A stretch of DNA of 44,952 nucleotides from Sphingobacteriales bacterium (lineage in GTDB: Bacteria > Bacteroidota > Bacteroidia > Sphingobacteriales > Sphingobacteriaceae). The position numbers were made by a program, and so were the translations under genes. Location of the stretch: positions 1 to 44,952 of the forward strand of contig RDXP01000121.1 of assembly GCA_004292865.1 (NCBI GenBank). Direction: 5' to 3'. Under the pieces are notes generated by a model. It did not search any database, was not told the origin of the DNA, and saw only the letters and a list, made by a program, of their open reading frames with translations. Of this stretch, positions 11,941 through 35,600 are shown piece by piece. Numbering within the stretch: position 1 is the first letter of the stretch; every line of letters starts with the position of its first letter.

Positions 11941-13041
11941 ATGTCGCAAAAACTTAAATTTATCAACACCAATAAATGCACTTTTTATGCCACAGTTCGC
12001 CTTCGTGTAGATAGTTACTTTATTGATAATCAAATTTCTACCCATGCCAATAGTGCTATGTGGATAAAGGCTTGCTTTTTTTTGGGTGGTTTTGTGGGTT
12101 TATATTTATGCTTGCTTTTGGGCAATTTAAGTATGGGTGCTATGCTGGTATTGGCTGTACTGTTGGGTATATTTGGGGCCTTTATTGGTTTTAATGTTTG
12201 CCATGATGCTATACATAAAGCTTTTTCGCACAATAAATATGTAAATAATGTATTGGGTTTTATGTTTAATTTAATAGGTGCAAGTACTTATGTATGGAAT
12301 ATTTGCCACAATGTAGTACACCATACTTATACCAATATAGCTGGCCACGATGAAGATATTGATATTGCCCCCGGTTTAATCCGTTTTTCGCCCCTAGAAA
12401 GTGTAAATAAACTGCAAAAATTTCAGCATTATTATGCTTTTGTTTTGTATAGTTTTGCTATGGTTACTTGGGCTTTTAGAAAAGATTTTAAAAAGTTTTT
12501 TCAATTAAAAATTGGGGAACAAAAATCTAACCATCCCAAAATTGAGTATTTTAACCTTTTCTTTTACAAAGCAATTTATTACTTTTTATTTATTGGGTTG
12601 CCTTTGTGGGTAATGCCTATAAACGGTTGGCAATTTATAATTGGGTTTTTAACTTATTTATTTGCACAGGGCTTGGTATTGGGTTTGATATTTCAATTGG
12701 CACACGTGGTGGAGGGTACGCAATTTCCCTTGCCTAATAACGAGGGCAACGTACAAGAAGCATGGGCAGCGCACCAAATGCGTACTACGGCAAATTTTTC
12801 GGGTAAAAGTAAAATTGCTGCTTTTTTATGTGGTGGCTTAAATCAACAAATTGAGCATCACTTGTTTCCTAAAATATGCCATATACACTACCCTGCTATT
12901 GCTGGTATTGTAAAACAAACTGCTTTAGAATTTAACCTTCCTTATATCGAAAACCTAACGTTTTGGAGTGCCTTACAATCGCATTACCGTATGTTGCGCA
13001 AGCTAGGGAAAGAATCGTATGGGGTAGTGGTTAGTGGATAG
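11941..13041 (+). CDS. Membrane fatty acid desaturase, front-end (linoleoyl-CoA desaturase-like)
   Basis: His boxes HDAIH, HNVVHH and QQIEHH (QxxHH front-end type); no cytochrome b5 domain at the N-terminus. Confidence 0.87.
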   Translation: MSQKLKFINTNKCTFYATVRLRVDSYFIDNQISTHANSAMWIKACFFLGGFVGLYLCLLLGNLSMGAMLVLAVLLGIFGAFIGFNVCHDAIHKAFSHNKYVNNVLGFMFNLIGASTYVWNICHNVVHHTYTNIAGHDEDIDIAPGLIRFSPLESVNKLQKFQHYYAFVLYSFAMVTWAFRKDFKKFFQLKIGEQKSNHPKIEYFNLFFYKAIYYFLFIGLPLWVMPINGWQFIIGFLTYLFAQGLVLGLIFQLAHVVEGTQFPLPNNEGNVQEAWAAHQMRTTANFSGKSKIAAFLCGGLNQQIEHHLFPKICHIHYPAIAGIVKQTALEFNLPYIENLTFWSALQSHYRMLRKLGKESYGVVVSG

Positions 13042-13092
13042 TTGTTAGTTGTTAGTGGGTAGTGGTTAGTTGTTAGTTGTTAGTTGTTAGTG
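13023..13092. repeat. Degenerate heptanucleotide tandem repeat (consensus GTTAGTK), about 10 units, overlapping the desaturase stop codon
   Basis: ggtagtg gttagtg gatagtt gttagtt gttagtg ggtagtg gttagtt gttagtt gttagtt gttagtg. Confidence 0.9.
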
Positions 13093-13290
13093 GGCTTGGG
13101 GATTAACTATAACACATTCTAAAGTTTCGGGGTAAAGGTATTTCTTGTTTTGGCTACTTAAAAGAATTTATATACATTGATATCATTGTTTTTTATTGAT
13201 TTTTAATCGGTAAATTTTTTAAGTACTATTTTGTATTTTTAGCTGCGTTTATACGGTGCAAGATAAACCTGCATTAAAAAGTACAAAGTT

Positions 13291-17906: not shown

Positions 17907-18093
17907 CCGATGCCTTCGCTCCAAGCGAAGGCATCGGTTGACCCATTAAAATAAAAATTTATACGTTGAAGGCCTCGATAAATAAAAAAGATAATTGTAA
18001 ATTATTAAAAATCAATATATTTACTCACGCCCTTCGCAAACCGATGCCTTCGCTTAGAGCGAAGGCATCGGAAAGTGGGCAATAAAAATATGG
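17907..18093 (+). repeat. RAYT-flanking composite module, copy 1 (palindrome A, linker, palindrome B, leader, ATGG)
   Basis: Palindrome A 17907-17937 (14-bp stem, loop cca); palindrome B 18041-18071 (14-bp stem, loop tag); linker and leader repeated at 18787-18970. Confidence 0.93.
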
Positions 18094-18704
18094 AAACCAG
18101 AAAAGCACAATTACATCCTGACAAGTATTATCATATTTACAACCGTGGTATTAATGGGCAAAATATATTTTTGGAAGAGAAAAACTATGCTTATTTCTTA
18201 CAAAAATATGCGCAATATATTTTCCCATTTTTTGATACTTACGCATACTGTTTGTTAAAAAATCACTTCCATTTACTAGTACAAGCAAAACCAGAGAATG
18301 ATATTAGATTATTTTTAAACGGTAAACATAAAGAAAAAAGCATTTCTTGGATTTTAAGTAATTCGTTTTCAAGTTTATTTAAAAGCTACGCACAAGCAAT
18401 AAACAAACAGTATGGAAGAACAGGTGGTTTATTTGAAGAACCTTTCCACAGAATAGAAGTAAATTCTGACTCTTATTTTTTGCGTTTGATATATTATATA
18501 CACACAAACCCACAAAAACACGGCTTTGTATTAGATTTTAGAGACTATAAACATTCGAGTTATCATAGCCATTTACTAACCAAAACAACCAAATTAAAAA
18601 AAGAAAATGTTTTAGAATGGTTTGGAGGTAAAGAAGGTTTTATAGAATTTCATAGTCAAAACCAAGATATGGGTCATATTTTAAACTTAATTGTTGAGTT
18701 TTAA
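18090..18704 (+). mobile_element. REP-associated tyrosine transposase (RAYT, IS200-like Y1 transposase superfamily)
   Basis: HIYNRGINGQNIF, HUH motif NHFHLLVQ, LIYYIHTNPQKHGF; start ATG at 18090 lies at the end of module copy 1 (ORF track start 18075 is GTG). Confidence 0.93.
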
Positions 18705-18730: not shown

Positions 18731-18800
18731 TGCCTTCGCTTCCGATGCCTTCGCTTCCGATGCCTTCGCTTCCGATGCCTTCGCTTCCGATGCCTTCGCT
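18731..18800. repeat. Tandem 15-bp repeat TGCCTTCGCTTCCGA x 4 plus partial unit
   Basis: Units at 18731, 18746, 18761, 18776, partial 18791; unit equals a palindrome-A arm plus TC. Confidence 0.95.
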
Positions 18801-31248: not shown

Positions 31249-31932
31249 TTAAAATATAAAACCTCCCGAAAAAAACAAGGTAGAACTTTTATTTGAGGGA
31301 ATAGTAAAATTTGTATTGTTGCTAAAGTTTGTAGTTGCTTTATCCCAATTGATGTAACTATAGGTTAGACCTAATCGGTAGCCAAATTTTTTCTCTGTTT
31401 TAAAAATGATGGTTATTTCGGGCTGTATTACAACATGGAATTTGCTTTGCGATGTTTTAATTTCCTCTAACTGGTTTTGAGTGTTAACTAAATTTGTAAA
31501 CATTCCTTTACCATATAGTTTTTGGTAATTTATACCCGCACCAAAGGTTAAAAATGTATTATCATCGGCATCAATACTAATTTTATATAGGGGTTTTACT
31601 TGTAGGGCTATGGAACTATTTTGTGCTTTAAATTCGGCAATTTGATTTTTTAAGTCTGGTTTTTCATAAAATTTATTTGTTACCGTACTTCTCACAACAT
31701 AATCAACCCCTATTTCGGTATAAAAATTTTCGGCAAAATTAACCGCATAGCCAACGTTAAAAATTATACCCGCGGTGGTATTATTGGGGTTTATATTATT
31801 TTGGTTGGATAAAACGCCTATATACTCCAATAAAGGCACTTTTAAATGGGTATAAAAATAGTTTTGCGCATAGCTATTACCAGTATGGGCAATACTAAAA
31901 AGTATTGCTAAATATATTTTTAAATATTTCAT
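31249..31932 (-). CDS. Outer-membrane beta-barrel protein, hypothetical
   Basis: Signal peptide MKYLKIYLAILFSIAHTGNSYAQ; alternating strands; C-terminal ...LFFSGGFIF. Confidence 0.75.
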   Translation of the reverse strand: MKYLKIYLAILFSIAHTGNSYAQNYFYTHLKVPLLEYIGVLSNQNNINPNNTTAGIIFNVGYAVNFAENFYTEIGVDYVVRSTVTNKFYEKPDLKNQIAEFKAQNSSIALQVKPLYKISIDADDNTFLTFGAGINYQKLYGKGMFTNLVNTQNQLEEIKTSQSKFHVVIQPEITIIFKTEKKFGYRLGLTYSYINWDKATTNFSNNTNFTIPSNKSSTLFFSGGFIF

Positions 31933-31981: not shown

Positions 31982-32521
31982 TTAAAAAAGAATACCAATA
32001 CCTAATGAAAATGATTGTAAAGAGGCTTTTTCATCTGTAAAAAAAATCTCCCTATAATTTTGGGTTTTGTAGGCTATCTCGGGCGTTAAGGCAATTTTTT
32101 TACCTATTTTTAGGTTATAGCCCAAGCCAGCTTCATACAATAAACCTCCTTTTAAAAAGCTATCAAACTCAATATTATATCCTATATTGGTAAATACAAA
32201 AGGTGTTTTTATTTGATTAAGAAAATAATAATGAATATTAGTAAACACAGGATAAAAGCTTACCGTAGGGTTTATATATGATGTAACTCCTATGCCTAAG
32301 CCTATAGCCAATTTAGGATTTATGTACCAGCCGTTTATGGTGGAAATTTCGGTTCCGTTACCACTTTTGTTTAACTGGGATGTCGAAATTGGTTCGGGGT
32401 TAGTTTTTGTTCTAATCAGAATACCAATTTTAGTTTTATTAAAAAAACCTTTCCTTGTAAAATCTTGTGAATATCCTAAAAAACAAGTGATTGTTAATAA
32501 TAATGTGATATATCGTTTCAT
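31982..32521 (-). CDS. Outer-membrane beta-barrel protein, hypothetical
   Basis: Signal peptide MKRYITLLLTITCFLGYSQ; C-terminal SLGIGILF; ATG at 32521. Confidence 0.75.
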   Translation of the reverse strand: MKRYITLLLTITCFLGYSQDFTRKGFFNKTKIGILIRTKTNPEPISTSQLNKSGNGTEISTINGWYINPKLAIGLGIGVTSYINPTVSFYPVFTNIHYYFLNQIKTPFVFTNIGYNIEFDSFLKGGLLYEAGLGYNLKIGKKIALTPEIAYKTQNYREIFFTDEKASLQSFSLGIGILF

Positions 32522-32531
32522 AGCTGTATTT

Positions 32532-34081
32532 TTATTGATTAACAATTCTTATCCCTCTCCATTCTGAACCATATTTAGCTAACCCAAAAACAGAAGCCTT
32601 ATTTAAAGTAAATTTCAAAGGGGCGTAACCTAATTTTATATCACTAAAATCGCTAGTTAATTTAATGCCTACTGCCCAATCTAATCTTTTAGATGCTCTA
32701 GATTGGTTATAAACAATAATTTCGTCTCTTTCTTGAATAATCGAAATACTCTTTTTAGTAAAATCGTTCCATACTTTAAAGGCATAGTTTACATCTTGCT
32801 TTTTGGGATATAACCCAAGTGAAGGATTTTTTGCAAAATCATATATTTGCTTTATACTTTTTTGAAGCATTTCGTTTTTTTCAAACTTATAATTGTATCC
32901 TAATAGGTCAACTTCTACATATTGTTTAGTTATTTTGGGTAAATCCAATGGTGTAAATTTTTGGGAACTATAAGGTGCATTTATAAGTGGAGCACCTGGT
33001 AGTTCTCCTGCATAATATTCGAGAGCGTCCCAACCTAATCTTATTTCGCTTGCATCGGTACTAGACCAACCTATCCAATTCTTTTTTTGCATAGTAACAT
33101 TTATACCTATTGCAGAATAAACACCCCACGTGGCATTATAAAAGTTTACCCTAACTCTATTGTTAGACCCAAAACCTTGGGTGTGTACCTCTTCTCTCCC
33201 CCTTAGGCTTTGAAAAAATTTACCTGCCCAAGTTTTTGCGCCAAACTGTACTGTAGGTAAGCTTTCGTAAATCCAATCATCGGAACCAGTACCCATAATT
33301 TTCTTGGATAGAGACTTTTTACTTTGCTGTATTTTTGAATCTGTTTTTGATGAACTTAAATTTTGGCTTTTAAATTCATCATTTATCAAATCAGGTTTTG
33401 CTCTGTTATAGGTATCTAAAAGCATTATACCATCTTCTATTTTATAAAAATCATCATTAGTATTATTCTTATAAAATGAATGGGCTGTAAGATTTTGATT
33501 TTCGACAAAAGGGTTAGCCAAAAGTATAGCATTTACCCTATCAAGTTTTTCGGGTTTAAAAATAAACGTTCCGTAAGGTGTAATCTTATATATTACACCC
33601 TCAACTTTAATCTCTAGCTTATCGTTAATCACAGAGGCAAAAAATGGGTCTGGTACAAGATCTTCAAAAGGCTTTACTTTTGTTGTGTCTTCCTTAGTTT
33701 CATTAGACTCAGTCCCCATAGGTACAATTAGTCTAGTAGCATTTAGATTTTTTTGTTTGGTGTAGAGTGAAATGAATTTAGGCGCATTAAGTATGGTTTC
33801 TATTTTTTGGGGCAATCCAAGTTCAGTACTTTCTGAAATTTGCGACATAACATTTTGGAAATCATTTGTCGTTCTAAAACTTAACATTCCAGTATTATCC
33901 AATGTAACTGGTGTTGGCAAATTTTCATCCAAAACATTTTTCTTACAAGATGAAACCGTAATGACCAAAAAACTTACTAAAACTATTACAGTATTTGTGA
34001 GTATTTGTGAGTGTTTGTGAGTGTTTGTGAGTGTTTGTGAGTGTTTGTGAGTGTTTGTGAGTGTTTTGTGAGTGTTTTCAT
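32532..34081 (-). CDS. Hypothetical lipoprotein; ATG at 34081 is out of frame with the body because of a 10-bp tandem repeat (candidate phase-variable gene). Continuous ORF from TTG: 32532..33968
   Basis: Body frame reads ...TVIVLVSFLVITVSSCKKNVLDENLP (lipoprotein signal peptide). Frame from ATG 34081 reads MKTLTKHSQTLTNTHKHSQTLTNTHKYSQIL* and stops. Confidence 0.75.
33991..34071. repeat. Decanucleotide tandem repeat (GTGTTTGTGA, + strand) in the 5' coding region of the lipoprotein gene
   Basis: 2x gtatttgtga, 5x gtgtttgtga, one 11-bp variant gtgttttgtga. Confidence 0.97.
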
Positions 34082-34400
34082 AAAAATTTTAGGTTAAATT
34101 AAATAATTTATTAATTAGGTGTAAATGTAATTTATGTACTTTTTAAATACAAATTTATTTTTACACAATAGGTGTTTAAACATCTTATTTATATGGCTTT
34201 AGTTTTTAGCCAGGCCCGTTCATCTACCATTTTAAAGCCCTGAATAGAGGATTAAATTCAATAACGCTATAATGTGTAGGTTTTGTGCTAAAGTGTTTAC
34301 ATCATCCACCATAGCATGTAATAAAGGTATGCCGTTTTTTTAACAGTGGTAGCCAAATATTATGTTTTTTGATTGATTTTGGATTGATTTTTTTGATAGT

Positions 34401-35600
34401 CTATAAATTTTGTGCAATTACATAACCACTAGCCCAAGCCCATTGAAAATTATAGCCGCCCAGCCAGCCAGTTACATCCACACACTCGCCTCCAAAATAT
34501 AGGCCTTTAACTTTTTTTGTTTCTAATGTTTTAGACGATAGCTCATTGGTACACACGCCGCCCCGCATTACCTCGGCTTTATCGTAGCCTTTATTGCCTG
34601 CTGGTGTAACTGTAAATTGGTGTATAAAATTATGGATAGCCTCCATATCGGCATTGCTTAACGAAGCTAAGTTTTTTTGGATAGGTAAAATCCCCGTAAG
34701 GGCATCTACAAATTTTCGGGTATAAAACAAGGTAAGGTAATTTGATAATAGCTTTTTACCGTTTGTTTTTCTTTCTTCTTCAATCAATATTTTTATTTGC
34801 TGCTTGGGCAAAAGGTTGATGGTAAATGTTTCGCCGGGTTGTAGGTACGATGATATTTGCAATATAGCTGGCCCACTTAATCCCCAATGGGTAAACAAAA
34901 TGTTTTCTTCGAAACTTATTTTACCATTGCTTACTTGCGCAAAAACCGAGTTGCCCGATAGGTGGGCGTACCAATCCAATGCCTTGCCTGTAATGGTAAG
35001 CGGCACCAGTGCGGGGGCGGTATGGGTAATGGCTAACCCAAATTGTTTAGCTATTTTTAAACCAAAATCGCTAGCTCCCATTTTGGCAATAGGCAAGCCT
35101 CCGCTGGCTATTACTACGTTATTGGTTTGTATTACAGTATTTTGCCCATTGGCGTGGTAGTTTACGTTAAAAATATCTTGCGTTTTGTTTATCCCCGTAA
35201 GGGTAGAATTTAGTACTATGGTTTGTTGCAATTGCTGGCATAAATCAATAAAAACTTGTACAATATCTTTGGCGGTATTGCTGGTGGGAAAAAGCTGGCC
35301 TAGCGTTTTCTCTTGCCCTATAATGCCGTAGGTTTCAAAAAATTGTACGCTATCGTTCACCGTCCAGGCGGCCAAAGCCGATTTTATAAAATGCGGGTTT
35401 TCGGAAATAAAGTTTTCGCTACCGCAATGCAGGTTGGTATAATTACACCTGCCACCACCCGAAATTAAAATTTTGGCCCCCACTTTATCGTTTTTTTCGA
35501 TAAGCAAAACACGCTTACCCAAAAAACCCGCCTGCACAGCACACATTAATCCGCAAGCACCCGCTCCTATAATTACGGCATCGTAATCTAAATTATCCAT
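34401..35600 (-). CDS. NAD(P)/FAD-dependent oxidoreductase, HI0933/YhiN family
   Basis: DAVIIGAGACGLMCAVQAGFLGKRVLLIEKN, GAKILISGGGRCNYTN, GLYFGGECVDVTGWLGGYNFQWAWASG. Confidence 0.92.
   Translation of the reverse strand: MDNLDYDAVIIGAGACGLMCAVQAGFLGKRVLLIEKNDKVGAKILISGGGRCNYTNLHCGSENFISENPHFIKSALAAWTVNDSVQFFETYGIIGQEKTLGQLFPTSNTAKDIVQVFIDLCQQLQQTIVLNSTLTGINKTQDIFNVNYHANGQNTVIQTNNVVIASGGLPIAKMGASDFGLKIAKQFGLAITHTAPALVPLTITGKALDWYAHLSGNSVFAQVSNGKISFEENILFTHWGLSGPAILQISSYLQPGETFTINLLPKQQIKILIEEERKTNGKKLLSNYLTLFYTRKFVDALTGILPIQKNLASLSNADMEAIHNFIHQFTVTPAGNKGYDKAEVMRGGVCTNELSSKTLETKKVKGLYFGGECVDVTGWLGGYNFQWAWASGYVIAQNL

Follow-up and report, generated by a model that had tools for sequence, protein, structure and literature searches.

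A decamer repeat array at the start of a predicted lipoprotein gene in a Sphingobacteriales bacterium, probably a slippage-prone contingency locus captured out of frame

The window, which refers to the whole stretch of DNA that was analysed (44,952 nucleotides, contig RDXP01000121.1 of assembly GCA_004292865.1, with the genome designated G000), carries on its minus strand a predicted lipoprotein gene with a repeat array at its start, a promoter-like element upstream and two genes for outer-membrane-like proteins downstream. The features of the locus are as follows:

34122..34152, minus strand: promoter-like element of the Bacteroidota type, TTG-N20-TACATTTA, from a motif scan
34079..34081, minus strand: ATG start codon, 5' of the decamer array and out of frame with the lipoprotein body as assembled
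33991..34071, minus strand: decamer array, composed of the 11-mer TCACAAAACAC, 5 x TCACAAACAC and 2 x TCACAAATAC
33983..33988, minus strand: TAA TAG stops that close the ATG frame right 3' of the array (OFF state)
33945..33990, minus strand: hydrophobic stretch of the signal peptide, with its lipobox, read in the body frame, VIVLVSFLVITVSSC
32532..33990, minus strand: lipoprotein body of an unnamed family, with a distant fold match to DUF4848
31982..32521, minus strand: downstream gene 1, 179 aa, with a signal peptide and outer-membrane-barrel-like, the barrel being inferred from sequence
31249..31932, minus strand: downstream gene 2, outer-membrane-protein-like, with a weak HP_OMP match and kept in the related genome G004

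The decamer array consists of eight near-identical 10-base repeats placed directly after the ATG of the lipoprotein gene, and on the minus strand the order is ATG (34081-34079), AAAACAC (34078-34072), TCACAAAACAC (34071-34061), five TCACAAACAC (34060-34011) and two TCACAAATAC (34010-33991), followed by TGTAATAG. An earlier sequence-only reading had described an ATG followed by five and then two decamer units, which was confirmed base by base; its order of units was correct, while the first full unit turned out to be an 11-mer and not a 10-mer. TRF reported a period of 10 with 8.7 copies, a 96% match and a score of 153, the highest among the arrays of the window, and the longest perfect period-10 run measures 63 nt. 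No period-10 arrays appeared in block-shuffled sequence. The RNA strand of the array contains no G, and the number of units is as given by a fragmented draft assembly of 219 contigs.

Read from the ATG, the frame runs for 31 codons as MKTLTKHSQTLTNTHKHSQTLTNTHKYSQIL and then meets TAA TAG, confirming that it stops right after the array. The body frame runs without a stop from 34082 to its stop codon at 32532-32534 (a stop further 5' lies at 34091), gives a reading of 517 residues and passes through the array uninterrupted. It holds no ATG, GTG or TTG upstream of or within the array, the first candidate start being TTG 33968, and the earlier description of an open lipoprotein frame devoid of ATG and GTG is therefore correct. 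The alternative body start at TTG 33968 was rejected, since it would leave the signal peptide too short. The array unit, which has a length indivisible by 3, is located in the 5' coding region of the gene and is stop-free in all three frames; as 10 mod 3 = 1 and no repeat frame contains a stop, the gain or loss of units decides the frame in which the array is left. In silico, changes of +1, +4, -2 or -5 units fused the ATG to the body and the remaining simulated changes did not join them, so that the proposal of fusion by gain of one unit or loss of two holds in simulation. The removal of the array, from which its growth by slippage had been argued, takes away 71 nt, which is not a whole number of units, and the slippage origin itself stands.

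The OFF state could also be a consensus artefact of a miscounted array, the true dominant form being in frame. The draft comprises 219 contigs and the 63-nt perfect repeat exceeds the k-mer sizes of many assemblers, and a pure run of this length may be mis-sized by short-read assembly. However, reads of 150 nt are long enough to cross the 88-nt array, the contig is unbroken here, and a miscount would alter the ON or OFF state and not the slippage-prone architecture; this explanation is considered quite improbable.

The hydrophobic stretch and a lipobox cysteine that is nearly invariant across 19 homologs indicate that the body-frame product carries a predicted lipoprotein signal peptide. Neither Pfam nor NCBIfam returned a family for the lipoprotein, and membership in a known protein family was rejected on this basis. 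The best PDB match of the predicted body in Foldseek was 4lb8 (BT3222, of the DUF4848 family), with an E-value of 4.4e-4 and a probability of 0.98, together with a low TM-score of 0.30 by target and a mean pLDDT of 65.5 for the model. The predicted body may thus have a distant fold resemblance to DUF4848, from which the low TM-score and the lack of a Pfam match distinguish it; for DUF4848 (PF16140), no Pfam match above the gathering score was obtained for the lipoprotein, and one of the 19 homologs gave a match at E 0.029. The viral fold search with the predicted structure gave no match.

A TTG-N20-TAnnYTT element, detected by motif scan and regarded as a putative promoter, lies about 70 nt 5' of the ATG both in G000 and in G004, a MAG of the same genus (REAS01000107.1, Sphingobacteriales). 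Upstream of this element, at window 34170-34185, a near-palindrome around GTTTAAAC was observed, and AGATGTTTAAACAC of the same region is identical in G004. The invertible promoters of Bacteroides are comparable to the locus in phylum and in target class (surface proteins), but no inverted repeats flank the promoter here, only one short palindrome having been found in 33700-34450, and an invertible promoter was rejected for this reason. Downstream gene 1 adjoins the lipoprotein gene in G004 and G014 as well. The lipoprotein gene is present in 3 of the 18 genomes of the genus, with a relative in 21 of 401 in the family sample, indicating that the gene is accessory. Relatives of the gene were not found on plasmids or viral contigs, nor was the decamer array found in viral contigs, and a mobile or phage-borne gene was rejected accordingly.

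The only close ortholog of the lipoprotein, with about 85% protein identity, is that of G004, which displays at the same place about four decamer units of different sequence, TCACAAATTC and TCACAAACTC, likewise without G on the RNA strand and with an ATG that reads into the signal peptide in frame; the slippage origin proposed earlier holds with this finding. In both G000 and G004 the paired-unit pattern TCACAAAYWC x2 is confined to this locus, and the 16 other congeners lack it altogether. With each lineage changed by about 8.6%, the chance that the 63-nt perfect run remained unchanged since the split of G000 and G004 is about 0.004. The run is therefore too homogeneous to be older than the split, which indicates that the array turns over and that its units were regenerated afterwards. 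Either an ancestral array underwent turnover in the two lineages separately or the arrays grew from a shared seed, and slippage at the site is needed in each case. The difference in repeat number and sequence between related genomes refers to the comparison of G000 with G004 only, which is made at large divergence. The lipoprotein body is under strong purifying selection, with a dN/dS of 0.10 and a dS of 0.87 between G000 and G004 over 454 codons, and the downstream gene shows a dN/dS of 0.17. The G004 copy is itself not intact, its body being frameshifted by 2 nt.

Differential states of preservation were observed for the close homologs, where four of the five are broken or truncated (G004, G014, G092 and G425). 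In G014, a one-contig genome that lacks the array, the body is frameshifted twice and contains internal stops; in G092 the ATG is followed by an A9 tract and misses by one base the frame of a signal peptide that is otherwise good, the C-terminus is shortened and a resolvase-like gene lies downstream, as read from the sequence; and the match in G425 is without the N-terminal part. As only G025 looks intact among the five, recurrent inactivation is a real rival, in which the window gene would be a recent pseudogene with the array as a slippage by-product at a repeat seed, its frame lost and the gene in decay, a course also seen in several related genomes. However, the body in the window runs over about 480 codons without a stop or frameshift, its dN/dS to G004 is low, and its sole defect falls where the gene is most mutable; a recent pseudogene is thus considered unlikely, and the relatives support a slippage-built switch over a dead gene.

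In G025, of the same family at about 28-32% identity, the corresponding stretch of the signal peptide contains an in-frame (TG)8, a length that TG tracts reach nowhere else in the G025 assembly. Another (TG)8 tract was observed at G092:C11:273921-273937. The poly-A tract of G092 is given little weight, since A8-A9 after the ATG is also present in intact distant homologs; the more distant homologs mostly look intact and have no non-homopolymer repeats at the start. Tentatively, and with some doubt, the family might represent a contingency gene in Sphingobacteriales, whose lineages would have independently recruited a decamer, a TG dinucleotide and a poly-A tract at the same signal-peptide position, giving a slippage-based surface switch beside invertible promoters. 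With distinct repeats at this one position among its members, the family would lend itself to testing whether SSR switches originate repeatedly at a single site.

The locus is probably a slippage-prone SSR contingency locus, captured OFF in this assembly, and the lipoprotein gene would then be switched on and off by repeat slippage. The array would act as an SSR contingency element in the n-region of the lipoprotein signal peptide, where ongoing slipped-strand mispairing would add or remove units and reversibly reset the frame at the array exit; mismatch repair deals poorly with loops of 10 nt. With a stop-free unit that shifts the frame by one, a single exit frame in three would enter the lipoprotein (ON), and the ATG frame as assembled runs into TAA TAG (OFF). 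The product, a predicted surface-type lipoprotein encoded 5' of the two outer-membrane-like proteins, may be costly to display, for instance through phage or predator attack, and such a cost would favour switching. The phase-variable switch put forward in the sequence-only reading is therefore retained in part, with the frame arithmetic, the OFF reading, the G004 array, the confinement of the paired-unit pattern to this locus, the promoter-like element of both G000 and G004, the dN/dS of 0.10 and the (TG)8 of G025 in its favour, and with the frames of most close homologs being broken in other ways against it.

A C/A-rich, G-free repeat could alternatively serve as an unstructured, translation-enhancing stretch or be a tolerated extension of the n-region, with its effects on frame being incidental. 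Such a role is consistent with the G-free arrays of both G000 and G004 and with a folded leader that is no more structured than shuffles, and in E. coli translation increases when CA repeats follow the start codon. However, the body as assembled is not translated from ATG 34081, and a fixed enhancer needs no hypermutable unit of a length that is not a multiple of 3, so that this explanation is regarded as very unlikely.

As a slippage-prone switch, the locus is comparable to the SSR contingency loci of Neisseria, Haemophilus and Campylobacter, where the 5' coding region of a surface-type gene likewise holds a tandem repeat with a unit length indivisible by 3, and where the downstream ORF comes into or falls out of frame as units are gained or lost, as seen here in silico. 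It differs from them in its 10-nt unit, its environmental Bacteroidota host, the apparently single locus as against a large set, and its putative switching. No case of SSR-driven phase variation in Bacteroidota was found in the openly accessible literature, of which the coverage was partial, and this absence is weak evidence; it agrees with the earlier view that a slippage switch would be unusual there. A 2025 review mentions Bacteroides in connection with inversions (PMC11868660). If switching is true, the locus would represent an ON/OFF gene driven by repeat slippage, in a phylum whose known phase variation is mainly by DNA inversion, in an uncultured environmental lineage and for a surface-type gene whose display is probably costly, and if there is no switching, it documents how readily this lipoprotein gene is lost by frameshift.

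The repeat background was assessed in a G000 sample of 1.195 Mb, taken in stretches and covering 53% of the genome. Known SSR users tend to have many SSR-switched genes. One period-10 array was found in the sample, and SSRs were present in the first 105 nt of 19 of the 827 sampled ATG ORFs of at least 150 aa (non-homopolymer in 4 of the 827, a rarity that favours the switch reading). In this gene-start scan of 53% of the genome, as judged by eye, a clear OFF state of a credible gene was seen at the window locus alone; a second clear OFF-type SSR gene was not found in the sampled part, and such an apparently single locus counts against the switch reading. Period-7 arrays, on the other hand, reached 40 in the sample versus 1 in shuffles, and these heptamer-word repeats show a general slippage tendency of G000. 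Direct repeats of TAACTGA and related heptamers are described near start codons in some Bacteroidetes, Cyanobacteria and Beggiatoaceae (PMC4679880), and they are similar in being short-word tandem arrays near start codons, and heptamer arrays abound in G000, but their unit is 7 and they lie mostly 5' of start codons, whereas the decamer here lies in the coding region; TAACTGA pairs are absent from the window. The decamer array as a part of the heptamer-word repeats was rejected, since its pattern occurs at this locus only and no further arrays of it exist in G000.

Heptamer arrays are also located within genes, and one of them, (AAAATTC)4.6, stands in frame directly after the ATG of an LptE (lptE) homolog (L053:4311-4343, G000 contig C10), indicating that a gene-start repeat in G000 need not be a switch; a pure switch reading is weakened by these other short-word arrays. 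The LptE homolog with the heptamer array at its start is probably an essential gene. Other arrays were observed, such as (AAATCAC)4.6 within the coding sequence of a polysaccharide deacetylase (L097:8084-8115); GCCCGAA/GCCCGCA heptamer words inside an unnamed ORF (L053:4927-6012); TTAGTGG/TTAGTTG heptamer words at window 13022-13094, at the 3' end of ORF 11941-13041; and the perfect 15-mer TGCCTTCGCTTCCGA in 4.7 copies at window 18731-18800, just after ORF 18075-18704.
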